This document shows, piece by piece, positions 1,563 to 49,309 of a DNA stretch of 52,848 nucleotides. The notes beneath the pieces were generated by a model. That model was not told where the DNA came from and did no database searches. It saw nothing but the letters and a program-made list of their open reading frames with translations. The stretch is taken from contig JAIPBL010000042.1 in the NCBI GenBank assembly GCA_021739645.1, forward strand, positions 1 through 52,848, read 5' to 3'. The stretch is from Saprospiraceae bacterium (GTDB taxonomy: Bacteria > Bacteroidota > Bacteroidia > Chitinophagales > Saprospiraceae). Position 1 is the first letter of the stretch, and each line of letters begins with the position of its first letter. Made by a program: the position numbers and the translations under genes.

Positions 1563-2177
1563 CTAATTCTCCAATCTTTCAATTTCCGTTCCCGAATCGT
1601 TATTAAAGGCTTCCTCAATCGGCGCCCGCTCCCCAATCTCTTGGTCGGGGTCTCTGAAATCCTTGGGCCTGGGCAGGTCACTGAGGTCTTTCAAGCCGAA
1701 ATAATCCATGAACTTGATGCTCGTGCCGTAGAGCAGCGGCCTGCCTGGGCCGTCGCTGCGGCCTGTGATAGAAACAAGTTCCTTCTCCAGAAGTTTTTGG
1801 AGGGAGTAATCGCTGCTCACGCCCCTGATTTGCTCGATTTCGGTTTTGGACACCGGCTGCTTGTAGGCGATGATGGACAGCGTCTCTATCGCTGCCTGCG
1901 AGAGCCGCTTTTTGGTTGTCTGTTTGAGCCAAGTGCCAATGACGCCGTGGTAGGCGCCCTTCGTCATGAACTGCAGGCCCCCGGCGATTTGCACCAGCTC
2001 GATGGCGAAGTTTTCGTCGCCATAGCGGGCCTTCACCTCGGCAATGGCAGCGGCCACATCGTCGGCAGAAAACTCCGTTTCAAAAGCTTCATCCAGCACC
2101 TGCCGGATGTCGTCGGGGGAGAGTGGAGCGTCGGCGGCGAACACCAGCGCTTCGATATGTTGGGCTAGTTTTTCCAA
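1563..2177 (-). CDS. scpB: Segregation and condensation protein B
   Basis: ScpB is the winged-helix subunit that with ScpA (not in this window) binds SMC and helps chromosome condensation and segregation. The protein carries the usual pair of winged-helix domains: the first around EALVFAADAPLSPDDI, the second around LSIIAYKQPVSKTEIEQIRG, the best conserved motif of the family. No ATG is available at the N-terminus. The open frame reaches a TTG at 2222, but a second TTG at 2177 gives EKLAQHIEALVFAA, which matches the family start, and the 45 bases between them are a heptad repeat element (2176-2211). I therefore prefer the TTG at 2177 (204 aa). The C-terminal tail after position 170 is acidic and variable. 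Confidence 0.88.
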   Translation of the reverse strand: MEKLAQHIEALVFAADAPLSPDDIRQVLDEAFETEFSADDVAAAIAEVKARYGDENFAIELVQIAGGLQFMTKGAYHGVIGTWLKQTTKKRLSQAAIETLSIIAYKQPVSKTEIEQIRGVSSDYSLQKLLEKELVSITGRSDGPGRPLLYGTSIKFMDYFGLKDLSDLPRPKDFRDPDQEIGERAPIEEAFNNDSGTEIERLEN

Positions 2178-2211
2178 GGATTGAAGGTTTGAAGGAAAAA
2201 AGGATTGAATG
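2176..2211. repeat. Heptad repeat element at the scpB start
   Basis: Degenerate tandem units of the type gattgaa / ggtttga / aggaaaa / aggattgaatg. It lies across the alternative start codons of scpB, so it would be translated only if the upstream TTG at 2222 were used. Confidence 0.4.
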
Positions 2212-2255
2212 TCAGGCGGCAAATTTAGGAAAAAACAACTGCTTCCCTAACCATC

Positions 2256-3155
2256 CTAATCGGGCTTCAAATGGCCGCAGTTGGCTTCCATTTTTTCCAA
2301 GAAGCTTTTGTTGGTAGTGAGTTTAGTATAGGTTTTGAGGTTGTGCTCTAGGTTGTAGGCAGGCTTGGTGTCTTGAAAAAAGATGTCGGCCAGGGACCTT
2401 AAGCTGTCAAATTCAAAGGCAGTTTGCACAAAACATTGCGTCATGCCGGGTGGGGCATTGGGGTTGAGCTGGGCGTGTTTGCTGGCAGCTCGTTCCTTGT
2501 ACAGTTCGATTTGTCTGGGCATTGGCTCGCTGAACAGCATTTGGTTGGCGTGTGGTTTTCGAGTAGCGTAACGTACCCGGAACTCGTCGCCTTCTTCCAG
2601 AGGCATGGGGTTCACCAACAAAATCAACGGCTCAGATTGCAGCATTGAAACTTGGGTGTAAGTCTGGTTGCCCGCTACAAACTGGTAGGATATTTCAGAA
2701 CGGTTGCCATCCAGTTTTCTTATCGTAACCCTCCCAACTGTCTCTTGGCTTCCTTTTGCCAGCATTTCCTCTATCCTTTCTGTTTCGGATTTCTTGGCGT
2801 TTTTACCCCACATCACAATGCCCGTCACGAGCAGCCCCATCACGCCCAAAAATATCAATAGCTGGCAAAAATGTTTGCGCTCAAGCTGGTGACGGAAGCG
2901 GTTTCGGGGGGTGTCGGTTTTTTTATCAATGTTGAAACTGAAGTACATGTCGTTGTCCCGTCGTTCGAGGTTGATATGCACCAGTTCTTCTTCGATAAAA
3001 AAGGTGTACTCCTTCGAATCGAACACCTTGAAGTCTATCTGGACGATTTTGGAGCCAATATAAATGACCAGATGCCCGGTGTTAGGGCTGTGAAGCAGCC
3101 CGACACGGTAGTTCCTGCCGTTGTCCCCGAGGTATGTCCAGGTGTAGTGGTTCAT
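2256..3155 (-). CDS. Hypothetical protein with one transmembrane segment
   Basis: Not recognised. About 299 aa counted from the ATG at 3155; an upstream TTG at 3170 would add five residues but lies within a hairpin repeat. The N-terminal 90 residues look beta-rich (VGLLHSPNTGHLVIYIG, YFSFNID) and should be cytoplasmic. A single hydrophobic helix follows at about 96-117 (LLIFLGVMGLLVTGIVMWG). The C-terminal half (about 118-299) has no signal of known domain; it contains a beta-rich part (about 125-210) that resembles a small extracytoplasmic domain and a helical end. The topology suggests a bitopic membrane protein with domains on both sides. No functional link with the neighbouring scpB is evident. 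Confidence 0.7.
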   Translation of the reverse strand: MNHYTWTYLGDNGRNYRVGLLHSPNTGHLVIYIGSKIVQIDFKVFDSKEYTFFIEEELVHINLERRDNDMYFSFNIDKKTDTPRNRFRHQLERKHFCQLLIFLGVMGLLVTGIVMWGKNAKKSETERIEEMLAKGSQETVGRVTIRKLDGNRSEISYQFVAGNQTYTQVSMLQSEPLILLVNPMPLEEGDEFRVRYATRKPHANQMLFSEPMPRQIELYKERAASKHAQLNPNAPPGMTQCFVQTAFEFDSLRSLADIFFQDTKPAYNLEHNLKTYTKLTTNKSFLEKMEANCGHLKPD

Positions 3156-3165
3156 GCTTTTTTGA

Positions 3166-3234
3166 GACAATGGAAGTTAGACATTAGACTTTAGATGATA
3201 GCATGTGCTAGTCTAATGTCTAACTTCCATTGTC
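3166..3234. repeat. Perfect 24-bp inverted repeat built from heptads
   Basis: Left arm 3166-3189 and right arm 3211-3234 are exact reverse complements around a 21-nt spacer. The left arm reads in 7-bp units (agttaga, cattaga, ctttaga). It lies 10 bp upstream of the ATG of the 2256-3155 gene. The 316-bp gap between the divergent genes also holds a candidate promoter at 3357-3364; I see nothing else in it. Confidence 0.85.
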
Positions 3235-3356
3235 TATCGTCTGGTAGTGAATAACGTACCTAAAGGTAAAAGGAACGGCGAATGTGCTTCGGCGAATTTC
3301 AACAAATCAAGCAAGTTAAAACTAAGTTAAAACAGGCAACTTGCGTTTGTCATTGT

Positions 3357-12756: not shown

Positions 12757-12767
12757 AAGGGGTTCGA

Positions 12768-12842
12768 GGTTTCAGGTTTCAATGGGTTTCAGGTTTCACG
12801 CCGGGACAGCCCTGAAACCTGAAACCATTGAAACCTGAAACC
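12768..12842. repeat. Heptad hairpin element (ggtttca family)
   Basis: Left arm 12768-12798 (ggtttca units) and right arm 12813-12842 are reverse complements apart from one extra G, around a 14-nt spacer. The element occupies nearly the whole gap between the protease stop and the fumarylacetoacetase ATG (7 bp further). The same family occurs at 14959-15028. Confidence 0.85.
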
Positions 12843-12849
12843 GAAAAAG

Positions 12850-14103
12850 ATGATTAAAGCAAACGACCCGACCCGAAAATCGTGGGTGGAAGTGCCCGCC
12901 GACAGTGACTTTCCGATTCAGAATCTGCCATTTGGCGTGTTCCGCACCGAGAGCAATCCGGCACCACGACTCTGCACCGCCATCGGCGACAACGTGGTGG
13001 ACCTGGCGGTGTTGAACTACATGGACCTGCTCGACGACGTGGAACTGGACAACGAGATTTACAGCAACCGCTACCTCAACGACCTGATGGCGCTCGGCAA
13101 GCCCAAGGTTCGCCAATTGCGTGACCGCCTGGCTGACCTGCTGGATGCCACCAACGACGAGGCCAAAGACCTCGCTTGGCATTTCTTGCATCCGATGGAC
13201 AAGGTGGAGATGCTGCTGCCCATCCAGATTGGCGACTACACCGACTTTTATTCCAGCATCGAACATGCCATGAACGTCGGCTCCATGTTCCGCCCCGACA
13301 ACCCGCTGCTGCCCAATTGGAAGCACCTGCCCGTGGGCTACCACGGTCGGGCGTCCAGCATTGTGGTGTCGGGTACGCCCGTGCACCGGCCCAGTGGGCA
13401 AACGTTGCCGAAGGACGCCGAACAGCCCGTTTTCGGCCCGACGAAGCTGATGGATTTTGAGCTGGAAATGGCCTTCGTGGTGGGCAAGCCCAATGCGATG
13501 GGCAGCCCGGTGAGCATCGCCGATGCCGAGGAACATATTTTTGGTTTGATGTTGTTCAACGACTGGTCGGCACGGGACATCCAGAGCTGGGAGTACGTGC
13601 CGCTGGGGCCGTTTTTGGCAAAAAACTTTGCCTCCACGGCCAGCCCGTGGGTGGTGACGCTGGATGCGCTGGAACCGTTCCGGGTGGCCGGGCCCGTGCA
13701 GGAGCCAGCGGTTTTGCCCTACCTGCAATCGCAGGGGGAAAAGAACTACGACCTTCATTTGGAAGTGGAAATACAGGCGGAGAACGGCGCCAATGCTGTG
13801 GTTTGCCGCTCGAATTTCAAGTACATGTATTGGAACATGGTGCAGCAACTGGCGCACCACACCGTGAACGGCTGCAACATGAACATCGGCGACCTTTGCG
13901 CCAGCGGCACCATCAGTGGCAAATCGCCGGACAGCTACGGCTCGATGCTGGAACTGACCTGGCGGGGCACGAAGCCGCTCAAACTCTCGGACGGCTCGGA
14001 GCGCAAATTCATCAACGACGGCGACACCGTGGTGATGCGGGGATGGGGGGAACGGAACGGTGTCCGCATCGGGTTTGGAGTGGCGTCGGGGAAGGTGGTG
14101 TAA
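12850..14103 (+). CDS. fahA: Fumarylacetoacetase
   Basis: Last enzyme of tyrosine degradation; hydrolyses 4-fumarylacetoacetate to fumarate and acetoacetate in the cytoplasm (EC 3.7.1.2). The 417-aa length is typical. The N-terminal SH3-like domain (FGVFRTESNPAPRLC) precedes the catalytic FAH fold with the metal and catalytic motifs YTDFYSSIEHAMNVG, LPVGYHGRASSIVVSG, KLMDFELEMAFVVG and LFNDWSARDIQSWEYVPLG, which carry the Asp/Glu ligands and the active-site His known from the mammalian enzyme. No other tyrosine-pathway gene (hpd, hmgA) is in the window. A hairpin repeat lies just upstream and a REP-like palindrome begins directly at the stop codon. Confidence 0.96.
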   Translation: MIKANDPTRKSWVEVPADSDFPIQNLPFGVFRTESNPAPRLCTAIGDNVVDLAVLNYMDLLDDVELDNEIYSNRYLNDLMALGKPKVRQLRDRLADLLDATNDEAKDLAWHFLHPMDKVEMLLPIQIGDYTDFYSSIEHAMNVGSMFRPDNPLLPNWKHLPVGYHGRASSIVVSGTPVHRPSGQTLPKDAEQPVFGPTKLMDFELEMAFVVGKPNAMGSPVSIADAEEHIFGLMLFNDWSARDIQSWEYVPLGPFLAKNFASTASPWVVTLDALEPFRVAGPVQEPAVLPYLQSQGEKNYDLHLEVEIQAENGANAVVCRSNFKYMYWNMVQQLAHHTVNGCNMNIGDLCASGTISGKSPDSYGSMLELTWRGTKPLKLSDGSERKFINDGDTVVMRGWGERNGVRIGFGVASGKVV

Positions 14104-14122
14104 CACGGACTGGCAGTCCGTG
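14104..14122. repeat. REP-like palindrome, copy 1
   Basis: Stem cacggact / agtccgtg around ggc; starts on the base after the fahA stop codon. A second identical copy lies 90 bp downstream. Confidence 0.75.
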
Positions 14123-14193
14123 CTTTTGCATTCGGGCTGCTTGTCCGTGAAAAGCAGTACGTTTGGCCATCAGTTAAAATGAAAATGGGAAAG

Positions 14194-14949: not shown

Positions 14950-14958
14950 ACGGTTCAT

Positions 14959-15028
14959 GGTTTCAGGTTTTGGGTTCCAGGGTTCAAGACCGGGTTGCCT
15001 GGAACCTGAAACCCAAAACCTGAAACCT
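14959..15028. repeat. Heptad hairpin element (ggtttca family)
   Basis: Arms 14959-14974 and 15012-15027 are perfect 16-bp reverse complements; outer units continue imperfectly. It fills the gap between the methyltransferase stop and the ABC ATPase ATG at 15032. Confidence 0.8.
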
Positions 15029-15031
15029 GCA

Positions 15032-15658
15032 ATGCTTCAAACCACAAAACTTCAATACTCCTACAACAGCGGCAGCGCCCTGACCTTCCCCGACATCCGT
15101 TGCGAAACTGGGGAACATTGGCTGCTGCTCGGCCAGTCGGGCTGTGGGAAGACGACGCTGCTGCACCTGCTCGGTGGCTTGCTCACAGCCAAGGATGGAT
15201 CGGTGATGGTGGGCGACACGGCTATCAATACGCTGAAGACCAGCCAGTTGGATAAATTTAGGGGTAAAAAAATCGGCATCATTTTCCAGACGCCGCACTT
15301 CGTCCGGTCACTTCGGGTAGGCGAGAATTTGGAGCTGGCGCAACGACTCGCCGGGCTTCCGGTGGATAAGAACCACATCGAAAAATTGCTAAAAAGGCTC
15401 GGTATCGGCCACAAAATCAATGCAAAAACCGATGCCCTCAGCCAAGGTGAGCGCCAACGTGCCGCCATCGCCCGGGCGCTGGTGAACAAGCCCGAAATCA
15501 TCCTCGCCGATGAACCGACCTCTGCCCTCGACGACAAAAACACGGACGAGGTCATCCGCTTGCTGGAGGAAACGGCTTCGGAGGTGAATGCTACGCTGCT
15601 GGTGGTGACGCACGACGGGCGGTTGAAAGAGCGGTTTGCGAAGAAAATATTGTTATGA
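15032..15658 (+). CDS. ABC transporter ATP-binding protein (LolD/MacB type)
   Basis: A 208-aa ATPase subunit. Walker A is GQSGCGKTT, the signature is LSQGERQRAAIARALV, Walker B is ILADEPTSALDD, and the H-loop is VVTHD. ATG 15032 is chosen because the upstream extension to 14957 is encoded by a hairpin repeat. The type with a single FtsX-fold permease next door belongs to the LolCDE/MacB superfamily, which moves substrates within the envelope instead of across the inner membrane. Its stop codon lies at the edge of a repeat that runs into the start codon of the permease gene, 72 bp on. Confidence 0.92.
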   Translation: MLQTTKLQYSYNSGSALTFPDIRCETGEHWLLLGQSGCGKTTLLHLLGGLLTAKDGSVMVGDTAINTLKTSQLDKFRGKKIGIIFQTPHFVRSLRVGENLELAQRLAGLPVDKNHIEKLLKRLGIGHKINAKTDALSQGERQRAAIARALVNKPEIILADEPTSALDDKNTDEVIRLLEETASEVNATLLVVTHDGRLKERFAKKILL

Positions 15659-15732
15659 TTGTTGAATTGCTTGATTGTTATCCGGGACACCACAACAATC
15701 AAACAATCATACAATAAAGCAATTCAACAATG
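15656..15732. repeat. Heptad hairpin element joining the two ABC genes
   Basis: Units gattgtt / gaattgc / ttgattg. Arms 15658-15672 and 15717-15731 are perfect 15-bp reverse complements. The left arm starts on the last base of the ATPase stop codon, the right arm ends inside the ATG of the permease, so the entire intergenic region is repeat. Confidence 0.85.
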
Positions 15733-17064
15733 TTAAAATTAAGTTGGAAAAACCTGATCAACAAGCCGCTGAACATGGCGCTTTCCCTCATCCTGTTTGC
15801 GCTGGGAGTGGGTTTGGTGTCGTTGTTGGTCAATCTGAACCACCAGGTCGAGGAGAATTTCGATAAAAACCTGGCCGGGGTGGACCTCGTGTTGGGGGCA
15901 AAAGGCAGCCCGTTGCAGATGATTCTCTGCGCCATGTACCATGTGGACAACCCCACGGGCAATATTCCCATCGAAAAAGCCCGAGCGTTTTTGAACCCAA
16001 AACACCCGCTCATCAAGCAGGCCGTGCCGCTCTCGCTCGGTGACAGCTACCGGGGCTACCGCATCGTCGGTACGACCTATGACATCCTGCAATTCTACAA
16101 CGCCACTATTGCCGAAGGAAAACTTTGGGCGAACCCGATGGAGGTGACCGTGGGTGCTGCGGTGGCTGATGCCCAGCATTTGCACATTGGCGACAAGTTC
16201 AAAAGTTCGCATGGACTGGTGGAGGGCATCGAGGAGCACGAGCATGATTTCACCGTGGTGGGTATCCTGAAACCGAGCGGCTCGGTGATTGACCAACTGG
16301 TGCTGACGCCGAGCGAAAGTATCTGGGAATCGCACGCTCACGCCTCGGATAGTTCGGCAGTTCGACAGTTGGCAGTTGGCAGTCAGGATACTACTACCGC
16401 TGAGGTACATGAACATGAACACGAGCATACTAAAGTGGCGCCGACGACTTACGATTCCTTGACCATCAGTCAATTAGCGCAACAGCAACGGTTGGAATTG
16501 ATGGAAAAGACGGACAAAGACATCACGGCAATCCTGATTCGCTTTCGCTCCCGAACGAACATCCAAGCACTGAACATGGCCCGCAACATCAACGAAAACA
16601 CCGAGCTGATGGCGGCCAGTCCACCCAACGAAATCGCCCGGTTGCAAACCAACCTCGGCCTCGGTGCGGATACGCTGAAAATGTTGGCTTGGGTCATCGT
16701 CATTGTGTCCGGTCTGAGCATTTTTATCTCGCTTTTTTCCTCACTGCGTGACCGCCGCTACGAGCTGGCGCTGATGCGGGTGATGGGCGGTTCTCGGGGA
16801 ACCTTGTTCCAACTCGTCATTCTCGAAGGGTTGTTGCTGGCAGTAATGGGCTATGTGCTGGGCATCGTGCTGAGTCATTTCAGCCTGGGTATTTTGGCGG
16901 GTTTTATGAAAAGTACCTACCGCTACTCGTTTTCTGGCTGGAAGTTTTTGCCGGAGGAAGGCTGGTTGTTTGTCGGGGCGCTTGCCGTGGGTTTTGTGGC
17001 GGCGTTGATTCCGGCTTTGCAGGCGAGGCGGACGGATATTTCGGAGACGCTGGCGCAGGGGTGA
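15730..17064 (+). CDS. ABC transporter permease, FtsX/MacB fold, His-rich
   Basis: Permease partner of the preceding ATPase, 444 aa. TM1 is near residues 12-32, a large extracytoplasmic domain follows, and three more TM helices (about 316-338, 360-385, 410-432) form the FtsX domain (LRDRRYELALMRVMGGSRG). The extracytoplasmic part is rich in His: EEHEHDF, HAHAS and EVHEHEHEHTK near residues 165-245, which may bind zinc or another metal (inference). Between the last two His clusters lies a heptad repeat element translated as SSAVRQLAVGSQD. Substrate is unknown; Lol-like lipoprotein transport or metal-linked envelope export are both possible. Confidence 0.9.
   Translation: MLKLSWKNLINKPLNMALSLILFALGVGLVSLLVNLNHQVEENFDKNLAGVDLVLGAKGSPLQMILCAMYHVDNPTGNIPIEKARAFLNPKHPLIKQAVPLSLGDSYRGYRIVGTTYDILQFYNATIAEGKLWANPMEVTVGAAVADAQHLHIGDKFKSSHGLVEGIEEHEHDFTVVGILKPSGSVIDQLVLTPSESIWESHAHASDSSAVRQLAVGSQDTTTAEVHEHEHEHTKVAPTTYDSLTISQLAQQQRLELMEKTDKDITAILIRFRSRTNIQALNMARNINENTELMAASPPNEIARLQTNLGLGADTLKMLAWVIVIVSGLSIFISLFSSLRDRRYELALMRVMGGSRGTLFQLVILEGLLLAVMGYVLGIVLSHFSLGILAGFMKSTYRYSFSGWKFLPEEGWLFVGALAVGFVAALIPALQARRTDISETLAQG
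16351..16387. repeat. Heptad repeat (cagttgg family) inside the ABC permease gene
   Basis: Units agttcgg / cagttcga / cagttgg / cagttgg / cagtcag. Same family and nearly the same order as at 18011, 28943, 41478 and 49239. Translated in frame. Confidence 0.8.
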
Positions 17065-17203: not shown

Positions 17204-19303
17204 ATGAAGCAACTGCCATTTTATATCCTATTGATTTTCAGCGGGTTGTTCGTTGAAGGTGCCGCTGCGCAATTTGGTGGCGGTGGTGGTGGGTTAGGTG
17301 GTGTCGCTGGCAAGTTTGGCGGCAGCGGTGGTGGCGGTAGTGGCGTACAACGCTTGGCACTTGATACCTCGGACATTTTTTTCTTTTACGCTGACGAGCC
17401 GAACCTCGTCTTTCCATTCAGCGACAGCCTGCTCAGTTCGGTGCACCAGTACGACCCCATCCGGCAGCAGGAGTATGACTTCGCCAATCTCGGCAACCTC
17501 GGCTCGGCAGCCCGTCCGCTGTTTTTTCAACCCACTTGGCGGCGGGGCTTCGATGTGGGACTGCACCAATTCGATATTTACCAAACGTCCACCGCCGACA
17601 TCCGGTACTACAAAATCACGCAGGCCTACACCAAGGCCGACTTCTCGAAGGGCGCTACCCAGAACGATGCGCAGTTCAATGTGCAGTTCAGCCGCAACTT
17701 CGCCGATGGCCTCAATTTCTCCATCGAGCACCGCCGAATCAACAACCTCGGGGCTTACGACACGCAGAAGGCCACCACTTCCAGCGTGGCCACGGGCATG
17801 TGGTACCACCCCAAAAAGGGCAATTACGACGTCTATTTCAGCTTCGTTTCCAACAGCATCGAGCAGCAGGACAACGGGGGCGCCGCCGAGGACTTGAGCA
17901 CAGCGTTCTTTGACGCTTACCAAGTTGATGTCCATCTAGCCAATGCCAATACTCGCTATGCAAATCGGGAGTTGGCATACACGCAGTACATTCGATTGAA
18001 TGGGAGGAGGAAAGTTGGCAGTTCGACAGTTGGCAGTGGGCAGTCGGAGCCGGGCAGCCCTAAAGATTCTCTGAGTACACGACTAACAAACTCTTCCAAA
18101 ATTGATTCAGCCTCCCACCGTCCATCTTCCACTGCCTCCAATCCGCAATCCGCAATCCGCAATCCGCAACCTAAAAGAGCCTTCACCCTCTACCACCAAA
18201 TTGCGTGGCACAAGGACAGCTACAAGTTCTCCGACACGTCGCCGGACTCCACTTTTTACGGTGATTTTATGGTGGATAAACGGGGGCTTCGGCACTACCT
18301 GGAAGTGCGAAAACTGGAAAACACGTTCAAGCTGCAGACCTTCAAATTGCACCAGCAAACAACTGACTCGACCTCCAATAGGGCATTGCCGAAGGAAAGC
18401 GACCTGCTGGAAATCGGGCTGGTGCACCGCCTGAATTTTTTGAAACAAGAACCCGTGGACACCGGGGCCATCCAAAACCTGTTCCTGACCGCCCGGCTCA
18501 ACTTCTCGCCCGGCGACCGCCTGCGCCTGAACACCTACGCCCACCTCGGCATCGGTGCCAATGCGGGCGACTACCGGGTGAGCGGCGAGCTGTTTTTAAA
18601 CCTGAAAAAAATTGGAACGCTGCGGCTGGAGGCGGTGAACCAGCTGTATTCTCCTTCTTTGCTGCCGCAACGGTTTTATGTGACGCAAGAAGAAATGTGG
18701 AAAAATGATTTCGGAAAAACGCTGGAAACCAGCCTATCCGGCACGTATTCGCTGCCGCAATTCAAGTTCTCCGTTGGCGGCAAATCACACCTGCTGAACA
18801 ACCTCGTCTATTTCGATGAGGCCGGAAGACCCCAGCAAAGCGGCACCTTCAGCATCCTACAGCTCACGGCGAAAAAGGACTTCACGCTTGGCCCACTGCA
18901 CCTTGACAATTCGGCCTACCTTCAGCAAACCACCTCGGACGTGCTGCCGCTGCCGCAATTTTACAGTAAGCATAGCCTCTTTCTCGAAGGCAAGATTTTC
19001 AAAAAAGTGATGCTCACGAAAATCGGCGTGGATGCCCGGCTCACCGCTGCCTACACGCCTCCGAGCTACAACCCGCTAATTGGGCAGTTTGAACTGCAAG
19101 ACACGCAATCCCTGCCCTTCACGCCACTACTCGATGCGTTCCTCAGTGTCAGGGTGAAAACCTTCCGGTTTTTCTTCAAAATCGAAAACGTATTGGCCAC
19201 ACCGCTTCGGACTTACTATTACCAAACGGCTGACTACCCGATGCCTTTTGGCTACACAAATGGCGGGATGCGGCTGGGGATTTCTTGGCGGCTGGTGGAT
19301 TGA
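17204..19303 (+). CDS. Putative outer-membrane porin
   Basis: A 699-aa protein of the Bacteroidota putative-porin family. A signal peptide (1-22) is followed by a Gly-rich stretch (about 24-47). The body is made of alternating amphipathic strands typical of an outer-membrane beta-barrel, with motifs such as FFQPTWRRGFDVG, YHPKKGNYDVYFSF and a C-terminal strand ending GMRLGISWRLVD. Residues about 269-324 form a low-complexity Ser/Thr/Asn/Pro insert that is encoded by two repeat elements (18011-18048 and 18138-18171) and interrupts a barrel region; it is most likely an extended loop. Substrate unknown; the following fucosidase suggests glycan-related uptake, but the genes are not clearly cotranscribed. 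Confidence 0.83.
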   Translation: MKQLPFYILLIFSGLFVEGAAAQFGGGGGGLGGVAGKFGGSGGGGSGVQRLALDTSDIFFFYADEPNLVFPFSDSLLSSVHQYDPIRQQEYDFANLGNLGSAARPLFFQPTWRRGFDVGLHQFDIYQTSTADIRYYKITQAYTKADFSKGATQNDAQFNVQFSRNFADGLNFSIEHRRINNLGAYDTQKATTSSVATGMWYHPKKGNYDVYFSFVSNSIEQQDNGGAAEDLSTAFFDAYQVDVHLANANTRYANRELAYTQYIRLNGRRKVGSSTVGSGQSEPGSPKDSLSTRLTNSSKIDSASHRPSSTASNPQSAIRNPQPKRAFTLYHQIAWHKDSYKFSDTSPDSTFYGDFMVDKRGLRHYLEVRKLENTFKLQTFKLHQQTTDSTSNRALPKESDLLEIGLVHRLNFLKQEPVDTGAIQNLFLTARLNFSPGDRLRLNTYAHLGIGANAGDYRVSGELFLNLKKIGTLRLEAVNQLYSPSLLPQRFYVTQEEMWKNDFGKTLETSLSGTYSLPQFKFSVGGKSHLLNNLVYFDEAGRPQQSGTFSILQLTAKKDFTLGPLHLDNSAYLQQTTSDVLPLPQFYSKHSLFLEGKIFKKVMLTKIGVDARLTAAYTPPSYNPLIGQFELQDTQSLPFTPLLDAFLSVRVKTFRFFFKIENVLATPLRTYYYQTADYPMPFGYTNGGMRLGISWRLVD
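18011..18048. repeat. Heptad repeat (cagttgg family) inside the porin gene
   Basis: Units agttggc / agttcga / cagttgg / cagtggg / cagtcgg. Translated in frame as KVGSSTVGSGQSE. Confidence 0.8.
18138..18171. repeat. Heptad repeat (caatccg family) inside the porin gene
   Basis: Four near-perfect tandem copies of caatccg followed by a partial copy, translated as NPQSAIRNPQP. Confidence 0.8.
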
Positions 19304-19307
19304 GGCA

Positions 19308-19341
19308 AATTGTTGAATTGCTGAATTGCTGAATTGTTATG
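19308..19341. repeat. Octad repeat (aattgctg family)
   Basis: Four tandem 8-bp units (aattgttg, aattgctg, aattgctg, aattgtta) 5 bp after the porin stop codon, with a weak complementary stretch before the fucosidase ATG. Related to the elements at 15656 and 32103. Confidence 0.7.
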
Positions 19342-19380
19342 TTTACGCTCCAACTTTTCAACAAACTCAATAGTTCGGCA

Positions 19381-25367: not shown

Positions 25368-26381
25368 GTGTCTACGATAATCCTCACCGGCGCTGCAGGC
25401 TTCATCGGTTCCTGCCTTTTGCGCAAGCTAAATGACGATGGACTGACCGGCCTCATGCTCGTGGACGACTTCTCCCGCCCCGACAAAAACCGCAACTTAG
25501 AAGGAAAGCGTTTTCGCTCGAAAATAGACCGGAACGACTTTATACCCTGGCTGCAAACCCATGCCGACGAGGTCAGCTTCGTCTTCCACCTTGGTGCCCG
25601 GACGGACACAGCGGAACAGAACACCCTCATTTTCAACAAATTAAACCTCGACTACTCAAAATCCATCTGGCAAATTTGCGCAGCAAACAACATCCCGCTC
25701 GTGTACGCCAGCAGCGCCGCCACCTACGGCGCAGGCGAGCACGGCTATGATGACCACCATGAAATAGTGCCCGAACTACACCCCCTCAATCCCTACGGTG
25801 TCAGCAAAAACGACTTTGACCTTTGGGCACTCCAGCAAACTGGTGAACTCCCCACTGCCCAATTCACCAATTCACCAATTCCCAATTCACCGCCTTTTTG
25901 GGCTGGCTTGAAATTCTTCAATGTATATGGCCCTAATGAGTACCACAAAGGCCGCATGGCCAGCGTCATCTTGCAAACAGTGAAGCAAATCCGGGAAACA
26001 GGCGGCATGAAGCTCTTCCGCTCGCACCGCCCCGACTACCCCGACGGCGGACAGCTCCGTGATTTCATTTATGTAAAAGACGTGGCGGACATCTGTCTGT
26101 TTTTTTACAAAAACCAAAAACACAGCGGGCTTTACAACGTAGGCACAGGCAAAGCACGGCCATTTTGGGACTTGGCCGTCAACACCTTCCTGGCAATGGG
26201 ATTGGAACCGAACATCAGCTTCATGGACACACCAGAGGACATCAGAGCCACTTACCAGTATTTCACAGAAGCCAAAATGGAAAAACTACGAGCCATAGGC
26301 TATGACAAACCCTTCTTCACCCTAGAGGAAGGAATAGATGACTACGTTCGGGAATACCTTCGGGAGGGAAAAATTTGGTAA
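25368..26381 (+). CDS. hldD: ADP-L-glycero-D-manno-heptose 6-epimerase
   Basis: NAD(P)-dependent epimerase of the short-chain dehydrogenase type that makes ADP-L-glycero-D-manno-heptose for the lipopolysaccharide core. The 337-aa protein has the Rossmann motif TGAAGFIGS at its N-terminus, the catalytic YxxxK in NPYGVSKND, and HldD-type motifs DDFSRPDKNRNL, LKFFNVYGPNEYHKGRMAS and DYPDGGQLRDFIYVKDVAD. The start is GTG at 25368, giving MSTIILTG. Between the helix after YxxxK and LKFFNVYGP lies an extra stretch of about 14 residues (LPTAQFTNSPIPNS) encoded by a repeat element; family members pass directly from a short turn into WAGLKFFNVYG. The insert should form a surface loop. Confidence 0.9.
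   Translation: MSTIILTGAAGFIGSCLLRKLNDDGLTGLMLVDDFSRPDKNRNLEGKRFRSKIDRNDFIPWLQTHADEVSFVFHLGARTDTAEQNTLIFNKLNLDYSKSIWQICAANNIPLVYASSAATYGAGEHGYDDHHEIVPELHPLNPYGVSKNDFDLWALQQTGELPTAQFTNSPIPNSPPFWAGLKFFNVYGPNEYHKGRMASVILQTVKQIRETGGMKLFRSHRPDYPDGGQLRDFIYVKDVADICLFFYKNQKHSGLYNVGTGKARPFWDLAVNTFLAMGLEPNISFMDTPEDIRATYQYFTEAKMEKLRAIGYDKPFFTLEEGIDDYVREYLREGKIW
25854..25892. repeat. Octad repeat (caattcac family) inside hldD
   Basis: Tandem units caattcac, caattcac, caattccc, aattcacc. Translated in frame in the epimerase. Confidence 0.75.
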
Positions 26382-28942: not shown

Positions 28943-28977
28943 GAACTGCCAACTGCTAACTGTCGAACTGCCAACTT
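28943..28977. repeat. Heptad repeat (cagttgg family, reverse orientation)
   Basis: The reverse complement reads agttggc / agttcga / cagttag / cagttgg / cagttc. It ends 3 bp before the stop codon of trhO. Nearly the same element is translated in three other genes of this window. Confidence 0.8.
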
Positions 28978-32099: not shown

Positions 32100-32102
32100 G
32101 GA

Positions 32103-32190
32103 GGTGATTGTTATATTGCTGTATTGTTTGATTGTTGGTGGAAGTCATACGAGTAACAATTTAACAATCCCAACAATCAAACAATCACCG
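32103..32190. repeat. Octad hairpin element (gattgttt family) between trkH and trkA
   Basis: Units gattgtta / tattgctg / tattgttt / gattgttg; the right part carries the complement (ccaacaatcaaaca at about 32170-32183 pairs with the left arm). The element fills the whole gap between the two genes. Confidence 0.8.
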
Positions 32191-32191
32191 A

Positions 32192-37454: not shown

Positions 37455-37459
37455 GTTTT

Positions 37460-37519
37460 GGTGATTGGTGATTGGTGATTGGTGACTGGGGTCATCCCAA
37501 TCACCAGTCACCAATCACT
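37460..37519. repeat. Heptad hairpin element (gattggt family) between fur and purA
   Basis: Left arm 37460-37491 contains three or more ggtgatt/ggtgact units, right arm 37497-37519 is the reverse complement. It occupies the whole intergenic gap and overlaps the fur stop codon. Confidence 0.85.
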
Positions 37520-39077: not shown

Positions 39078-39088
39078 GTTGGAGGGAC

Positions 39089-39118
39089 AAAGTAAAAAGT
39101 ACAAAGGCAAAAGGAGAA
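39089..39118. repeat. Heptad repeat (aaaaagt/caaaagg family)
   Basis: Units aaagtaa / aaagtac / aaaggca / aaaggag. A relative is at 45641-45674. Confidence 0.55.
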
Positions 39119-39212
39119 CACCTAAAACCTTCTTTTTAACCCATTTTTTCATAAAAAATGACCCATTTTTGCCCCCCGGCTACGGCCTTGCAGTTCTCGC
39201 AGGCGCCCCATC

Positions 39213-39243
39213 CGAAATCGTAAATCGTAAATCCGCAATCAAA
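39213..39243. repeat. Heptad repeat (gtaaatc family)
   Basis: Units gaaatcg / taaatcg / taaatcc / gcaatca, ending 5 bp before the ettA ATG. Relatives at 17067 and 46605. Confidence 0.7.
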
Positions 39244-40979: not shown

Positions 40980-41948
40980 ATGAAATACATAACCAAACTA
41001 TTCATTTTCAGCACGTTAGCCTTTTTCCTCGTTGAAGAAATGGCTGCCCAGTCCCCTACACTGTCTGAGCGTATTCCTGGCTCGAAGGTCAGCTTCCAAC
41101 TGACACTTGTGCCCGGCGGCATCTTCACGATGGGCAACGAAAATGGCCCCGCCAATGAGCAGCCGCCCCGTCAGGTGCAGCTTGACAGCTTTTGGATGGG
41201 TACGACGGAGGTAGGCTACGACGAGTTCATTATTTTTTACCAAAAACAATACGACTCGGACTCCACGGCACACCCCGCACAAGCCTACAAGGCCGATGCC
41301 ATCAGCCGCCCCACCCCGCAGTACATTGACTACACTTACGGCATGGGCAAATCGGGATTCCCGGCGGTGAGCATGACACAGCAAGCGGCGCTGCGCTATT
41401 GCCAGTGGCTTTATGAAAAAACGGGAAATTTTTACCGCCTACCGACCGAGGCAGAATGGGAATATGCCTGCAGGTACAAAGTTGGCAGTTCGGCAGTTGG
41501 CAGTTGGCAGTTGGGAGCTGAGTTGAGTGATTATGCTTGGTATTACAATAACAGTTTTGAGAAATACCATGTGCTGGCGCAAAAAAAACCAAATGCGCTT
41601 GGCCTCTATGACATGCTCGGCAACGTGGCGGAGTGGACCCTCGATTTTTACGATGACGACTACCTCCAAAACCTCCCCGCCGACCCCGCCAAAAACCCGT
41701 GGATAGAACCCACCAAGCGCCACTCCCGTACCGTGAAAGGTGGCTCTTACGACAGCAATTCCTCGGAATGCACCTGTTCCGCAAGGAAAAAATCAGAGTC
41801 AAGATGGCAGGCCCGTGACCCCCAAATCCCGAAGAGCCGTTGGTGGAATCCCGATTCACCGTTCGTGGGCTTCCGGGTGGTTCGCCCCGTGAAGCCAATG
41901 ACGAAAACGGAGGTGGATGCGTTTTTTGAGAAAGCAATCAAGGACTAA
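40980..41948 (+). CDS. Secreted formylglycine-generating-enzyme-like (SUMF1) protein
   Basis: A 322-aa protein with a signal peptide (about 1-23, cleavage near EMAAQ) and an FGE-sulfatase domain: FTMGNENGPANEQPPRQV, FWMGTTEVGYDEF, FYRLPTEAEWEYACR, LGLYDMLGNVAEW and KGGSYDS. Such domains occur in formylglycine-generating enzymes but also in non-catalytic proteins of the gliding and T9SS machinery (GldJ/GldK), so activity is uncertain. The conserved residues after EWEYACR, usually an AG-rich stretch, are replaced by KVGSSAVGSWQLGAE, encoded by a heptad repeat at 41478-41520. The start is ATG 40980; a TTG lies 3 bp upstream. Confidence 0.88.
   Translation: MKYITKLFIFSTLAFFLVEEMAAQSPTLSERIPGSKVSFQLTLVPGGIFTMGNENGPANEQPPRQVQLDSFWMGTTEVGYDEFIIFYQKQYDSDSTAHPAQAYKADAISRPTPQYIDYTYGMGKSGFPAVSMTQQAALRYCQWLYEKTGNFYRLPTEAEWEYACRYKVGSSAVGSWQLGAELSDYAWYYNNSFEKYHVLAQKKPNALGLYDMLGNVAEWTLDFYDDDYLQNLPADPAKNPWIEPTKRHSRTVKGGSYDSNSSECTCSARKKSESRWQARDPQIPKSRWWNPDSPFVGFRVVRPVKPMTKTEVDAFFEKAIKD
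41478..41520. repeat. Heptad repeat (cagttgg family) inside the FGE-like gene
   Basis: Units agttggc / agttcgg / cagttgg / cagttgg / cagttgg. Same order of units as at 16351 and 18011. Confidence 0.85.
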
Positions 41949-41950
41949 AA

Positions 41951-42012
41951 TGAGGTATGAGGTCTGGGGTCTGAGGTCTTAAACACGAGTCTCAAAATAC
42001 CTCAGACCTCCC
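41951..42012. repeat. Heptad hairpin element (aggtctg family)
   Basis: Left part has units gaggtat / gaggtct / ggggtct / gaggtct; right part (from about 41996) carries the complement atacctcagacctcc. It lies between two convergent genes and begins 2 bp after the stop of the FGE-like gene. Confidence 0.8.
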
Positions 42013-42016
42013 TGCT

Positions 42017-44026: not shown

Positions 44027-44150
44027 TGTTGATTTTCGTGAAGTCCAAAAGTAAGGGATGCTTTCGTGTTTTCCTACGAAGCTGGAATTTGGCGATTTTA
44101 ATAAAAAAACTGGTAATGGTCAATTGTGTTGATATAGGCCGCAGACAGTA

Positions 44151-44172
44151 CTGCCAAAGTCCGCTTTGGCAG
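44151..44172. repeat. REP-like palindrome (left of an inverted pair)
   Basis: 9-bp stem ctgccaaag / ctttggcag with loop tccg. Part of a pair with 44229-44248 in the gap between mtaB and the DUF4129 gene. Confidence 0.75.
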
Positions 44173-44228
44173 CGCAGGTCTTCGAAAATTGGCAAATGTT
44201 AAGTGCCTACGAGCGCCAAGCTCAAAAG

Positions 44229-44248
44229 CGCCGAAGCGGACTTCGGCG
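44229..44248. repeat. REP-like palindrome (right of an inverted pair)
   Basis: 8-bp stem cgccgaag / cttcggcg with loop cgga, the complement of the tccg loop at 44160, so the two palindromes are in opposite orientation, like a BIME. Confidence 0.75.
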
Positions 44249-44284
44249 ATACATCAACCTTTTTGGGCCATCATCAAAAAAAAT

Positions 44285-45640: not shown

Positions 45641-45674
45641 AGGTAAAAAGTAAAAAGGCAAAAGTACAAAGTGG
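45641..45674. repeat. Heptad repeat (aggtaaa/aaggcaa family)
   Basis: Units aggtaaa / aagtaaa / aaggcaa / aagtaca / aagtggg, 9 bp upstream of the mtaB ATG. Relative of 39089-39118. Confidence 0.6.
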
Positions 45675-46483: not shown

Positions 46484-46497
46484 GCAAAAAGGTTGTA

Positions 46498-46636
46498 CGA
46501 TTTACGATTGGAAGCCGTGGTTGGCGTTTAAAACAGCTTCTGATTACGATGATTCCCAAATAAAGCATGTCCACATTTCCTTTTGAAGGAAGCTACCCCC
46601 TCCTATTCGTAAATCGTAAATCGTAAATCGTAAATT
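46498..46636. repeat. Heptad repeats (gtaaatc family), inverted pair
   Basis: One unit pair (acgatttacgatt) at 46498-46510 and four units of cgtaaat at 46605-46635 in opposite orientation. They lie in the gap between the skp genes; the right block ends just before the stop codon of the first copy. Confidence 0.75.
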
Positions 46637-46639
46637 GCC

Positions 46640-47235: not shown

Positions 47236-47419
47236 GTTAAGACTACGTTCTGTCAACTTTGCTACAACGCACTTTTCTTAACTTTTTAAAAAACTGCCTT
47301 GCAACTTGCACTCAATGAACGACTTAGGGAGTCAACGGTTGCCCGGATGGCCCAGACTTTAACGTGGGTTTAACCAGCATAAAACAAGGTTTAACAGTTT
47401 TGGCCAAGCTTCCAGTTGC

Positions 47420-49183
47420 TCAAAACTCGCCAATCACCTCCGCTTCCAGCTCCCAGTTGGCTCGCAGCTCCTCCAGCGTTTTCCGAACGACCCGCTCCGG
47501 CTGACGGTGAAGGTCGTAGCTGCCAGTCGTCCAACGCCCGTTTCGGTCGAGGTCTTCAATCAATTCGACAGTGTAGGTGGCGGGGGGCATCAGGTCGAGT
47601 TTTACCTGAAAATCCGCTACATCTGCCACTTTCCAGACCTTCACTGGTGGCGATTCGGGCTTTTCCAACAGGCGGATGATGTAGGCTTTGGCGGTGTCCA
47701 GTTTCGTTACTTTCAGCATCATCGTACCGAGGTCCTTTGCTTGGCCAACGGTAATTTTTTGATAGATACTGTCCGTGTTGCTCAGGCCGTACATGCTTGT
47801 CACGCCGCCGGGCAATATTTGAAGCTCGTAACCAACGCCTTCTTTCCACGGGTATTTCACCGCCAAAGTCCTTTTTGCCAAGGAGTCAATGCTGAATTTT
47901 GGCGTCACGATGGTCTTTGTGGTGTCTTCCAACAAGCGAAGGTTAGTGGCTTCGAATCCGACCAACGGGTAGTTAAAAGACAAACGGAACGGCTGACCTG
48001 GCACCAATTTTTGTGGTTGGCCGGTCGGTTTTGCGGCAGTCGTGAATTTGGCAACATCCAAAAAGCCAGCTCGAAGGCCACTTTTTACCAAAACGGTGTC
48101 CACGCTCGTGTCACGCTGCACGAACACCCGCCAAGTAGTGTCCTGCACAGGGTGGTTGTACCATAGCCGGAGGGTGTCTTTGTCGTTTTCAAAAAAGACG
48201 ACCTGCCCCAAACTGTCAAAACTGACCTTCGCCTCGATGGGCGGTTGGTTGAAAGTAAGATTTACCTGCCCGTATTTCGTGACGTCCTTGCTTCGCAAAA
48301 ACAGGGGTTTTTCTTCGGCAAAAAGTTTCAGGTTGACCTTAGGTGTGGGTGGCAGTTTGGGCTTCGCTATTGCCGGGAGGCTATCAATTTTCACCACCAA
48401 CGAGTCGCTTTGGAGGCTGTCTTGTTGCAGCGTATCTTGTTCCGCCACGGTTGTATCGGGCAGCATTTCACCACTCAAAACCAGGTTGCTGTCGAGGAAG
48501 CCAATCTGCTCGGCATCGCTGTCGAAGCGGTAGTTGAGGTTCAGGTCGTTCAGCGCCACGGCCTTGAAAGTGCCCGATTTTACGTTGTTCACTTTGAATT
48601 TGCCCTCCTTGTCCGTCATCGCAAAATAGAACGGTCGCTCCTTTCTCACCACCGAATCGGCGAGGTTTTCATAGAGCATGAACAGGGTTTTCTCCACGGG
48701 CTTGCCCGTCCAGGCATCGGCGATTTGACCCTCCACCGACAGCGAATCAATGTAGTCTCCAGTGGAAAAAACGAACACGATAGGCGCCACATTCCCCTCT
48801 GTGATGTCCCGGATGGCCTGTCCGAAATTGATGACGTAGGTGGCACTGTCCCGCAACACCTCATCCTTGTCGAAAAGGACTTGGATGGTTTTCTTTCGAC
48901 GCACGATTTCTGGGCGCTTTGCCAGCGGGGGCGAGATGACCACTTGCGTGAACACGTCCCGCAATTCCACCCACTCGTCAAAGGCAAGCACGATGTCCTG
49001 TTTTTTGAAACGAGTCTGAAAATTTCGGGTGGATTGTTCGGTTTTGAGCTTGGGCGGGTCGAGGTCTTTCGGGCCGCCTACCGGCAATACGGGGTTGGCG
49101 CAGCCGGCGAGGACAAGCGTCAACGCCAACATTGGCCAAGTAAAAAGCGGCAGTTTTAATATTTGCAAAAGACCTTTTTTCAT
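47420..49183 (-). CDS. Ig-like domain lipoprotein (SbsA/Big_5 type)
   Basis: A 587-aa lipoprotein from ATG 49183 with lipobox LVLAGC followed by NPVLPVGGPKDLDPPKL, a start that is very typical of this Bacteroidota family. The first 110 residues carry an Ig-like SbsA-type domain (FKKQDIVLAFDEWVELRDVF, ATYVINFGQAIRDITEGN). The rest is beta-sandwich material with a carboxypeptidase-regulatory-like part (VEGQIADAWTGKPVEKT, DKEGKFKVNNVKSGTFKAVAL) and a C-terminal domain ending YTVELIEDLDRNGRW. Function unknown; cell-surface or envelope role likely. The frame upstream of 49183 is not used. Confidence 0.85.
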   Translation of the reverse strand: MKKGLLQILKLPLFTWPMLALTLVLAGCANPVLPVGGPKDLDPPKLKTEQSTRNFQTRFKKQDIVLAFDEWVELRDVFTQVVISPPLAKRPEIVRRKKTIQVLFDKDEVLRDSATYVINFGQAIRDITEGNVAPIVFVFSTGDYIDSLSVEGQIADAWTGKPVEKTLFMLYENLADSVVRKERPFYFAMTDKEGKFKVNNVKSGTFKAVALNDLNLNYRFDSDAEQIGFLDSNLVLSGEMLPDTTVAEQDTLQQDSLQSDSLVVKIDSLPAIAKPKLPPTPKVNLKLFAEEKPLFLRSKDVTKYGQVNLTFNQPPIEAKVSFDSLGQVVFFENDKDTLRLWYNHPVQDTTWRVFVQRDTSVDTVLVKSGLRAGFLDVAKFTTAAKPTGQPQKLVPGQPFRLSFNYPLVGFEATNLRLLEDTTKTIVTPKFSIDSLAKRTLAVKYPWKEGVGYELQILPGGVTSMYGLSNTDSIYQKITVGQAKDLGTMMLKVTKLDTAKAYIIRLLEKPESPPVKVWKVADVADFQVKLDLMPPATYTVELIEDLDRNGRWTTGSYDLHRQPERVVRKTLEELRANWELEAEVIGEF

Positions 49184-49238
49184 AAAAACGCCATTGGGCG
49201 GGGCCAAAGATGCCGCATTTGCCGAAGTTTAACAAGAC

Positions 49239-49309
49239 AGTGTGCAGTTTGACAGTTGGCAGGGGGCAGTCGGTGGCTGTTATCACGGTCTCGACTGCTA
49301 ACTGCCCAC
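49239..49309. repeat. Heptad hairpin element (cagttgg family)
   Basis: Left arm with gtgcagt / ttgacag / ttggcag / gggg-cagtcgg units, right arm near 49293 with gactgctaactgccca, its approximate complement. It lies between xerD and the lipoprotein and its right end overlaps the stop of xerD. Confidence 0.7.

Follow-up and report, generated by a model that had tools for sequence, protein, structure and literature searches.

STRR-like heptad and octad hairpin elements of a Saprospiraceae genome and their possible renewal by break-and-copy repair from G-rich 3' ends

Introduction

Why do the gaps between genes of a Saprospiraceae bacterium hold so many short hairpins that share one layout, made of degenerate 7- or 8-bp units, and differ in sequence from place to place? 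The question was raised by a sequence-only reading of a stretch of 52,848 nucleotides (the window), which likened the elements to the STRR of cyanobacteria and proposed that they spread by slippage, by hairpin-primed copying or through a RAYT-like or reverse-transcriptase-like enzyme. Cyanobacteria have long been known to carry heptamer repeats, and STRR were first described from heterocystous members of this group. To our knowledge, there is no accepted mechanism for them.

Results

The heptad and octad hairpin elements of this genome were confirmed as real. TRF at a minimum score of 30 gave 38 rows across the window, 22 of them with period 7 or 8, and a lag-match scan found 77 elements in 452,848 bp. 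Lag-7 matches formed 35 runs that were 10 or more long, whereas an order-3 Markov copy had one. In intergenic DNA (59,896 bp), segments scoring at least 10 numbered 35 at period 7 and 17 at period 8, where the Markov control gave 0.2 and 0.6; the fear that shuffled intergenic sequence might give a similar density was therefore not borne out. Coding DNA held 14 such segments at period 7 and 8 at period 8 (0.3-2.5 in the control), and some period-7 segments sit inside conserved genes with the reading frame kept. A stricter scan gave 142 elements in 838,332 bp, genes being defined by a home-made gene finder. The density first proposed, one per 2.3 kb, is thus near the figure for the window (20 lag-scan elements in 52.8 kb) but too high for the genome (about one per 5.9 kb); densities for other genera are based on 2-20 kb per genome. 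Seven window elements had DNA folding z-scores of -12.0, -9.8, -7.1, -5.4, -4.7, -4.1 and -1.8. Unit sizes beyond 7-8 bp were also found, such as 10/9 bp in the closest congener, G013.

Table 1. Heptad and octad features of the window, with the state of the same slot in congeners
Position	Strand	Feature	Basis	Congeners
2176..2209	.	AAGGATTG octads, start of minus-strand gene 1563-2177	TRF, lag scan	
3165..3235	.	TTAGACA-unit hairpin, perfect 26-bp arms, G-rich arm 5'	folding z -12.0	
12757..12849	.	GGTTTCA heptad hairpin, fills gap before FAA-hydrolase gene	lag scan, congener alignment, folding	G013: GATTGTT octad hairpin, flanks matching
14950..15031	.	GGTTTCA hairpin	congener alignment, folding	G013: GGGTTGATAA hairpin, period 10/9
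15648..15741	.	NNATTGYT octad hairpin, overlaps end of one gene and start of next	lag scan, folding	family retained in G013, G003, G008
16351..16383	+	AGTTGGC heptads, in frame, loop of FtsX/MacB permease gene 15730-17064	lag scan	G013: GGTGGAC heptads and remnant; G008, G007: no array
18001..18047	+	AGTTGGC G-rich arm, in frame, Porin_10 gene 17204-19303; mixed-family pair with 18139..18169, G-rich first	lag scan	
18139..18169	+	CAATCCG C-rich arm, Porin_10 gene 17204-19303	TRF, lag scan	lost in G013
19304..19375	.	AATTGCTG octad hairpin, start of Alpha_L_fucos-domain gene (finder start 19339)	TRF	absent from G013 alignment
25839..25891	+	CAATTCAC octads, in frame, NAD-dependent epimerase gene 25368-26381	TRF, lag scan	
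28944..28976	.	AACTGCC C-rich arm, AGTTGGC family	TRF	present in G013
32100..32191	.	GATTGTT octad hairpin, fills TrkA-TrkH gap	congener alignment, folding	same family in G003, G006, G005, G011; AATTGGG-type hairpins in G008, G012, G013
37455..37518	.	GATTGGT heptad hairpin, fills FUR-adenylosuccinate synthetase gap	congener alignment, folding	related unit in G009; different unit types in G003/G007, G012, G013
39087..39114	.	AAAGTAAAAAGTACAAAGG G-rich arm	lag scan	
39205..39240	.	CGTAAAT C-rich arm, mixed-family partner of 39087-39114	lag scan	
41480..41520	+	AGTTGGC heptads, in frame, FGE-sulfatase-domain gene 40980-41948	lag scan	AGTTGGC also in G013
41949..42016	.	TGAGGTC hairpin, fills convergent gap	congener alignment, folding	G013: GAGTTTC hairpin; G003: gap of ~30 bp, element-free
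45643..45672	.	GTAAAAA/GTACAAA G-rich arm	TRF, lag scan	same family in G013
46496..46514	.	GATTTAC G-rich arm, long-loop hairpin between two OmpH genes	congener alignment	G013: related GATTGCG-type arms; G003: other units (OmpH-OmpH slot)
46600..46639	.	TCGTAAA C-rich arm of the same hairpin	TRF, lag scan	as above

There is no preference for a class of gap: the 371 co-directional gaps hold 67 elements, the 96 convergent ones 20 and the 97 divergent ones 16. On the stop side, 50 of 107 edges fall between -5 and +10 bp from the stop codon. The numbers for divergent gaps and the 36 of 142 elements inside genes do not agree with intrinsic terminators, which follow transcripts and are seldom found in divergent gaps or within genes. 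Rfam models gave no match at gathering score across the window, and the idea that the 7-nt unit derives from tRNA anticodon loops was dropped as likely numerology.

Slots for comparison were picked by hand: 26 rows, covering the window plus a single 20-kb stretch and only a part of the 77 elements; eight rows without flanks in G013 were excluded and the other 18 represent 17 slots. At these 17, G013 carries another array family in 12, the same in four and none in one, as judged by eye and by alignment scores. We graded eight of the changes as clear and four as less so: a remnant survives at slot 16351, the unit at 46600 is a related one with an AATC core, GGTAT is found in both genomes at C56:149817, and the array at C56:154940 is weak. 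Outside this count, the G013 element is of the same family at 45643 and absent at 19304. The study genome's family is retained in G003 at five changed slots (16351, 32100, C56:149009, 150075 and 156944), and the adenylosuccinate synthetase is 96% identical to that of the study genome in G013 and 90% in G003. Since G003 keeps the family, taking it as the outgroup would place these five changes on the branch leading to G013.

At C56:156944 in G013 and at C56:157969 in the study genome, remnants of an outer arm adjoin an array of another family; within the G013 FtsX loop, the remnant of the old array lies on the 3' side of the new units rather than outside them. Some slots are empty in certain congeners, and inspection by eye gave no clean case of a target-site duplication at empty or replaced sites. 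In loops of conserved proteins, namely the FtsX-type permease and a SNF2-like helicase, the peptide has been swapped wholesale for one of similar length (the FtsX comparison omits the split G006 gene and had no anchor in 6 of 13 genomes). Congener alignments thus uphold, at many slots, the suggestion that form rather than sequence persists. Vertical descent accounts for some slots, inherited with their sequence, but most of those examined against the closest congener have been replaced.

Arrays within 200 bp of each other were scored as Gc when the G-rich array lay 5' and the C-rich array 3', and as cG in the reverse order. In the study genome, 47 of 52 pairs are Gc and none is cG. Congener stretches gave 21 Gc and no cG (n=23), and loci from other Saprospiraceae MAGs 32 Gc and 2 cG (n=46); these loci were chosen for an AGTTGGC pattern, their species may overlap with the former sets, and they have no 500-bp stretch in common with them at 95%. 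The order persists when the arms belong to different families, with 9 Gc and no cG among 11 such pairs in the study genome, and 26 Gc, 1 cG and 8 other among 35 in the five sets pooled, where "different" is set by a score threshold and a few pairs resemble diverged members of one family. The small cyanobacterial sample, taken from plasmids, comprises Nostoc (8 Gc, 1 cG, n=12), Gloeothece (1 Gc, 0 cG, n=1) and Trichormus (one pair, GG). The cG pairs total three, two in MAG loci and one in Nostoc.

Among intergenic inverted repeats, 56 of 61 with heptads are G-first, versus 52 of 99 ordinary ones, which excludes a general hairpin bias as the source of polarity; within genes, heptad inverted repeats are G-first in just 7 of 11 cases. 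The order is gone at spacings of 201-1000 bp (8 Gc vs 7 cG). Beyond 1 kb neighbouring arrays are mainly cG (45 vs 12), as expected from Gc pairs in succession. Rho or RNA-level strand selection is not a likely cause, because single arrays do not favour the sense strand (9 of 26 within genes; 15 of 34 in gaps between co-directional genes). As unlike arms retain the G-first order, polarity looks like an attribute of each arm rather than of palindrome copying.

The families differ entirely between loci and are shared among members of the genus. A longer order of units (AGTTGGC, AGTTMGAC, AGTTGGC, AGTTGGC) is often common to AGTTGGC elements. The number and order of units vary freely. By eye, the loop motif CTGCTTCCAC occurs in three AGTTGGC elements, and the GGTTTCA loops have a loose mutual likeness; such family-specific signatures fit whole-element copying and count against a break-and-copy process. 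One element of the study genome matches congener loci at 71-83% over nearly its full length. In a new 124-nt element the arms recur at dozens of places and the loop does not. Donor searches for two new elements of G013 (78% complete) found no near-identical match, the best other matches reaching 73% (116 nt) and 80% (67 nt). Judged by eye, almost every substitution counted in two inherited GATTGTT elements hits the Y or one of the two variable letters of NNATTGYT, and the arms of octad elements have the ATTGYT core in common, whereas the NN letters often differ between them. In the hairpin at 3165-3235, non-repeat letters are common to both arms. The carriers of the element's long pattern are Saprospiraceae, Saprospirales or Bacteroidetes MAGs, hence we call the elements STRR-like and not cyanobacterial STRR.

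With regard to candidate enzymes, PF00078 (reverse transcriptase) had one RVT_1 match in the study genome and none in 7 of the 14 genus genomes (G002, G003, G005, G008, G011, G012 and G013), of which G002, G003, G008 and G012 are heptad-rich and 98-100% complete. Y1_Tnp (PF01797) matched in 33 of 40 genomes searched, heptad-poor ones included, and in 12 of 14 in the genus; it had no match in G013, a 78% complete genome that shows the rewriting scored here. Only one of the seven Y1_Tnp genes of the study genome has a GC-rich array nearby, at 324 bp; the other six have none within 1.1 kb, the nearest being at 1.1-3.4 kb or missing from the stretch. Ku had no match in any of the 14 genus genomes, which speaks against classical NHEJ, so rejoining would need a different route.

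Discussion

We propose, at a probability of roughly 40%, that these STRR-like elements are renewed by break-and-copy repair that starts at G-rich 3' ends. The elements form many families, often with two arms flanking a loop, and the G-rich arm leads whichever strand is read. An extruded hairpin would be cut near its loop and, following from the observed polarity, the two resulting 3' ends would be the G-rich strands of both arms. Each end would be trimmed outward, prime through microhomology on another heptad array and be extended by some units, and the ends would be rejoined into a new G-first pair, usually of one family. Copying between elements would spread families through the genome, and gaps and protein loops would be the tolerated sites, where, to judge from the intact frames, only in-frame outcomes would survive. 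The hairpin would then mark an inherited slot with exchangeable contents. In favour of this proposal are the polarity, which unlike arms keep, the changed contents of inherited slots, the outer-arm remnants, the recurrence of arms but not of the loop of the 124-nt element, and the clustering of stop-side edges near stop codons. The sequence comparisons revealed no break, enzyme or intermediate. Also counting against the proposal are the missing near-identical donors of the two G013 elements, the place of the FtsX remnant, the low G-first share of heptad inverted repeats within genes, the three cG pairs and the lack of Ku matches. Such a DNA process would be previously unrecognised, and cyanobacteria may share it. 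Simple slippage or hairpin-primed copying, as first suggested, leaves unexplained both the G-first order of unlike arms and whole-family replacement in place.

It is rather unlikely that the elements are MITE-like families, in which heptad-armed hairpins would be moved whole by a putative transposase that prefers existing hairpins and displaces the old element. The longer unit order and occasional loop motif of AGTTGGC elements, the near full-length matches to congener loci and the old-arm remnants adjoining new elements would suit such movement; however, the best other copies of the two newly written elements are just 73% and 80% alike, units vary freely in number and order, unlike arms retain polarity, and the Y1_Tnp genes, the transposase family examined, are not linked.

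An unlikely explanation is also that the hairpin, as RNA or DNA, is itself selected, while its sequence changes under that constraint through ordinary slippage, turnover of units and point mutation. No gap class is preferred, many elements lie inside genes, slots are vacant in some congeners, change relative to the closest congener is wholesale with no intermediates, and the polarity of unlike arms is not predicted. These facts have to be set against the strong folding of window elements, the placing of substitutions in the inherited GATTGTT elements and, according to the portion of PMC4476775 consulted, the membership of the Nostoc P6b hairpin in an intron RNA.

We consider it improbable that in at least two phyla the 3' ends of a broken hairpin are capped with short G-rich repeats, telomere-like, and then fused head to head, with neither Ku nor a reverse transcriptase that can be recognised, the scar hairpin breaking again and being rewritten; if true, this cycle would make a structural, sequence-free inheritance. 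Even more doubtful is a donor-free addition of G-rich heptads to both break ends by a telomerase-like or terminal-transferase-like activity. The layout does equal two G-strand-capped ends fused head to head, unlike arms keep their polarity and octad arms share the core more than the NN letters, but half of the genus genomes have no PF00078 match, families shared genus-wide suit copying from existing arrays, and so do the non-repeat letters shared by the arms of 3165-3235. Finally, a reverse transcriptase or RAYT, as the sequence-only reading had it, is highly improbable as the spreading agent despite the Y1_Tnp matches and the single RVT_1 match, given the heptad-rich and nearly complete genomes without a PF00078 match, and given that Y1_Tnp does not discriminate heptad-rich from heptad-poor genomes, has no match in the 78% complete G013 and is not associated with arrays at its flanks.

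The likeness to STRR goes deeper than form: tandem degenerate 7-bp units are dispersed over many intergenic sites, one unit class is replaced by another in place, and the G-first polarity is shared with Nostoc plasmid arrays (8:1, n=12), a small sample. In the Nostoc trnL intron, the part of PMC4476775 consulted describes degenerate heptads in the P6b stem-loop (Class I TDNGATT, Class II NNTGAGT) and one locus where the whole stem-loop was replaced in place by the other class. Degenerate heptad stem-loops and in-place class replacement are common to both systems; unlike P6b, the elements described here belong to many loci and families in one genome of the Bacteroidota, occupy gaps and in-frame protein sites, have another family at 12 of 17 examined slots, and have a polarity that is stated and controlled.

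The claim that Bacteroidota had no described equivalent was wrong, since TAACTGA heptamer direct repeats are already known from Beggiatoaceae, Cyanobacteria and five Bacteroidetes (PMC4679880, consulted in part). These share with our elements intergenic heptamer arrays near gene ends, a scattered distribution and some longer mixed assemblies, and differ in having a single unit sequence, which in the main species is chiefly in direct orientation and located ahead of gene starts; the sections of PMC4679880 consulted contain no description of paired-arm polarity or in-place replacement. Neither the polarity rule nor genome-wide rewriting was seen in the literature searched. REP/REPIN are likewise paired inverted short repeats that form hairpins, many per genome, and the REP class is tied to a RAYT gene in the passages of PMC3116915 consulted. 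Here we found no such linkage, neither copies flanking a RAYT gene nor one conserved REP sequence per RAYT. Elhai and colleagues (2008) reportedly described small dispersed repeats (SDR) of Nostoc punctiforme, tiny units of 21-27 nt with a common structure and unlike sequence, often inside heptameric repeats; set side by side from description, they resemble our elements in structure over sequence and differ in unit length. Rickettsia palindromic elements are inserted in frame within protein genes, as some heptad arrays are here, and are not known to contain heptad units.

Strand polarity across unlike arms, in two phyla, is a constraint on any mechanism, and slippage alone fails it. In-place rewriting makes the process testable by ordinary resequencing of culturable Nostoc. 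Moreover, the wholesale exchange of loop peptides through turnover at the DNA level is an uncommon way for new coding sequence to arise.

Dispersed heptad hairpins and the order of their arms

The proposal that dispersed micro-elements with a period of 7 or 8 bp occur here was borne out by a scan that at first covered the window and 400 kb from its own genome (452,848 bp) and later 838,332 bp of that genome, which is 6.16 Mb long and 99.7% complete, with the window as contig 34. At a score of at least 10, intergenic DNA contained 35 segments of period 7, where the control had 0.2, and 17 of period 8 (control 0.6); coding DNA contained 14 and 8 (control 0.3-2.5). The 452,848 bp also contained 35 runs of at least 10 matches at lag 7, where an order-3 Markov copy had one; lags 8, 14, 15, 16, 21 and 22 were raised as well. 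Folding z-scores of seven window hairpins ranged from -12.0 to -1.8. The AGTTGGC family has 178 matches genome-wide with at most one mismatch, compared with three for the reversed control pattern, and nine of the 13 congeners have at least 16; congener G010 has none, and its 70 matches to the reversed pattern represent another heptad. Contigs C49 and C69 of the same genome each carry about 19 perfect AGTTGGC units in their first 140 bases, and since they start within long arrays, the assembly seems to break there and array lengths may be underestimated. On contig C44, positions 16483-16708 hold several tandem copies, about 67 bp each, of a AGTTAGAC/AGTTGGC element with a common loop, and an inverted copy lies at 16832; this is a larger array assembled from a small element. 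Other inverted repeats, at window positions 44148-44252 (GCCAAAGTCCGCTTTGGC...) and 14099-14217 (GCACGGACTGGCAGTCCGTGC...), are free of heptad units and are probably different dispersed palindromes.

When two arrays lie at most 200 bp apart, the G-rich array precedes the C-rich one on the plus strand: at threshold 10 this order was found in 39 of 44 pairs and its reverse in none (47 and 0 of 52 at threshold 9). Since reverse complementation leaves the layout unchanged, the rule holds for both strands. Ratios of G-first to reversed pairs were 21:0 of 23 in congener stretches, 32:2 of 46 at loci of other Saprospiraceae MAGs, 8:1 of 12 on two Nostoc N6 plasmids (250 kb) and 1:0 of one on a Gloeothece plasmid (50 kb), while the single pair of a Trichormus plasmid (150 kb) was GG. 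Small dispersed repeats have reportedly been described for Nostoc punctiforme in one paper. Pairs whose arms were scored unlike were still G-first (9:0 of 11 in the window's genome; 3:0 of 4, 12:1 of 17, 1:0 of 2 and 1:0 of 1 in the remaining sets). Neighbouring arrays 201-1000 bp apart in this genome had no polarity (8 G-first, 7 reversed). As a control, perfect inverted repeats with arms of 10 or more, loops of 3-60 and unequal numbers of G and C were counted. Of those that overlap no array, 52 of 99 intergenic and 21 of 41 genic ones had the G-rich arm first; where an array was overlapped, the counts were 56 of 61 in intergenic DNA and only 7 of 11 in genes. Of 26 single arrays in genes, 9 had the G-rich strand as the sense strand, as did 15 of 34 in co-directional gaps; with no sense-strand excess, removal of C-rich transcripts by selection is unlikely to account for the polarity. 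At locus L188 (330-470) a mixed hairpin, with G-rich GGATTGAA and C-rich ACTGCCA arms, is tandemly duplicated.

The commonest long repeat pattern of the genome was found in MAGs of Saprospiraceae, Saprospirales or Bacteroidetes, one of these MAGs being labelled Lewinella (55 stretches in all), and on that basis the genome was assigned to a species of Saprospiraceae. The sequence-only reading knew of no described equivalent in Bacteroidota, which is contradicted by the TAACTGA heptamers that PMC4679880 reports from Beggiatoaceae, Cyanobacteria and five Bacteroidetes. Work by Mrazek and colleagues is cited there for the idea of polymerase slippage and for the finding that, in most of the repeat-rich genomes, long simple repeats are most often heptanucleotides.

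Slots are inherited and rewritten

DNA identity between the window's genome and its closest congener, G013, is 79-92% across large matches. Among 17 slots, or hairpin positions, with both flanks found, 12 hold another family in G013 (8 of them clear), four the same family and one has lost its element. At five changed slots the family is common to the window's genome and G003, so the change would fall on the G013 branch if G003 is the outgroup, a status taken from protein identities and not from a tree.

Examples of clearly replaced slots
Window position	Window's genome	G013
12757	GGTTTCA	GATTGTT
14950	GGTTTCA	10/9-bp GGGTTGATAA hairpin
41949	TGAGGTC	GAGTTTC

The TrkA-TrkH gap has a hairpin in all eight genomes compared (seven and G013), of the GATTGTT family in five and AATTGGG-type in G008, G012 and G013. 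The gap between FUR and adenylosuccinate synthetase was examined in the window's genome and 12 congeners. Six of these 13 genomes have hairpins, which fall into four or more unit types: GTGATTG-like in the window's genome and G009, GGATTGRA-like in G003 and G007, and others in G012 and G013. In four (G008, G006, G005 and G011) the gap is longer, with other sequence of 266-632 bp that may comprise small inserted genes, and no hairpin was seen; in the last three it measures 56-62 bp and lacks an element. In a literature search of limited depth, covering a small share of subscription literature, neither the polarity rule nor the rewriting of slots across a genome was found to have been stated before.

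Slots also lie inside genes. One loop of an SNF2-like helicase, a name given by eye to the translated gene, carries an AGTTGGC hairpin in the window's genome and a GATTGCG hairpin in G013, both in frame and with nearly identical flanking residues. The FtsX loop has AGTTGGC units in the window's genome, G003 and G011, GGTGGAC units in G013, a mixed insert in G005 and no heptad units in G008 and G007 (six of 13 genomes, without anchor, were left unscored). At window positions 16330-16460 this loop is His- and Asp/Glu-rich beside the insert, and its length differs among congeners. In-frame elements of the window occur in the FtsX/MacB permease, a Porin_10 protein, an FGE-sulfatase-domain protein and an epimerase.

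Of 142 elements, placed with the help of 610 genes from a home-made gene finder, 67 lie in the 371 co-directional gaps, 20 in the 96 convergent and 16 in the 97 divergent ones, 36 within genes and three at stretch edges. Stop-side edges fell -5 to +10 bp from the stop codon in 50 of 107 cases. A terminator role was rejected, as this distribution over gap classes and genes is unlike that of terminators.

Possible origin of the elements

Spread by a reverse-transcriptase-like or RAYT-like enzyme, as suggested earlier, found no support in profile searches. PF00078 had no match in seven genus genomes (G002, G003, G005, G008, G011, G012 and G013). PF01797 matched in 33 of 40 genomes searched and, within the genus, had no match in G013 and G001; moreover, arrays do not cluster beside the seven Y1 genes of the window's genome. 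Ku had no match among the 14 genus genomes. The only RVT_1 match of the window's genome adjoins a Y1_Tnp gene (locus L323, contig C51, 41217-42972), and both frames, read stop to stop, start with similar RRTGVRR / PPNWGSAV peptides, suggesting another palindromic coding repeat.

No fresh donor copy was found in G013 (78% complete) for two of its new elements. One, of 124 nt, has 41 further matches there, all but two of them 23-47 nt long and in arms or arm edges; the remaining two, one per strand, mark a single near full-length place (73%). The other, of 87 nt, has eight other matches, of which the best covers 67 nt at 80%, and the loops resemble each other loosely. Thus, arms are common property and loops less so. 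AGTTGGC elements often have a common unit order (8-nt AGTTMGAC second) and at times a common loop motif, so the copied blocks exceed one unit. A MITE-like model seems unlikely, selection acting first on structure slightly more so, and de novo addition at 3' ends improbable.

We consider that the elements, with their period, hairpins, polarity, persistent slots, replacement and in-frame coding slots, are best explained by breakage and copying, to which we give a probability of about 0.4. DNA would break at the hairpin, G-rich 3' ends would prime on other arrays and the ends would rejoin. At C56:156944, about 12 letters from the outer end of the former GATTGTT arm survive in G013, with a GGTTTCA hairpin after them, and at C56:157969 the window's genome has an outer arm part common with G003 followed by another family, both consistent with trimming from the loop outward; the remnant order in the FtsX loop of G013 is the opposite.
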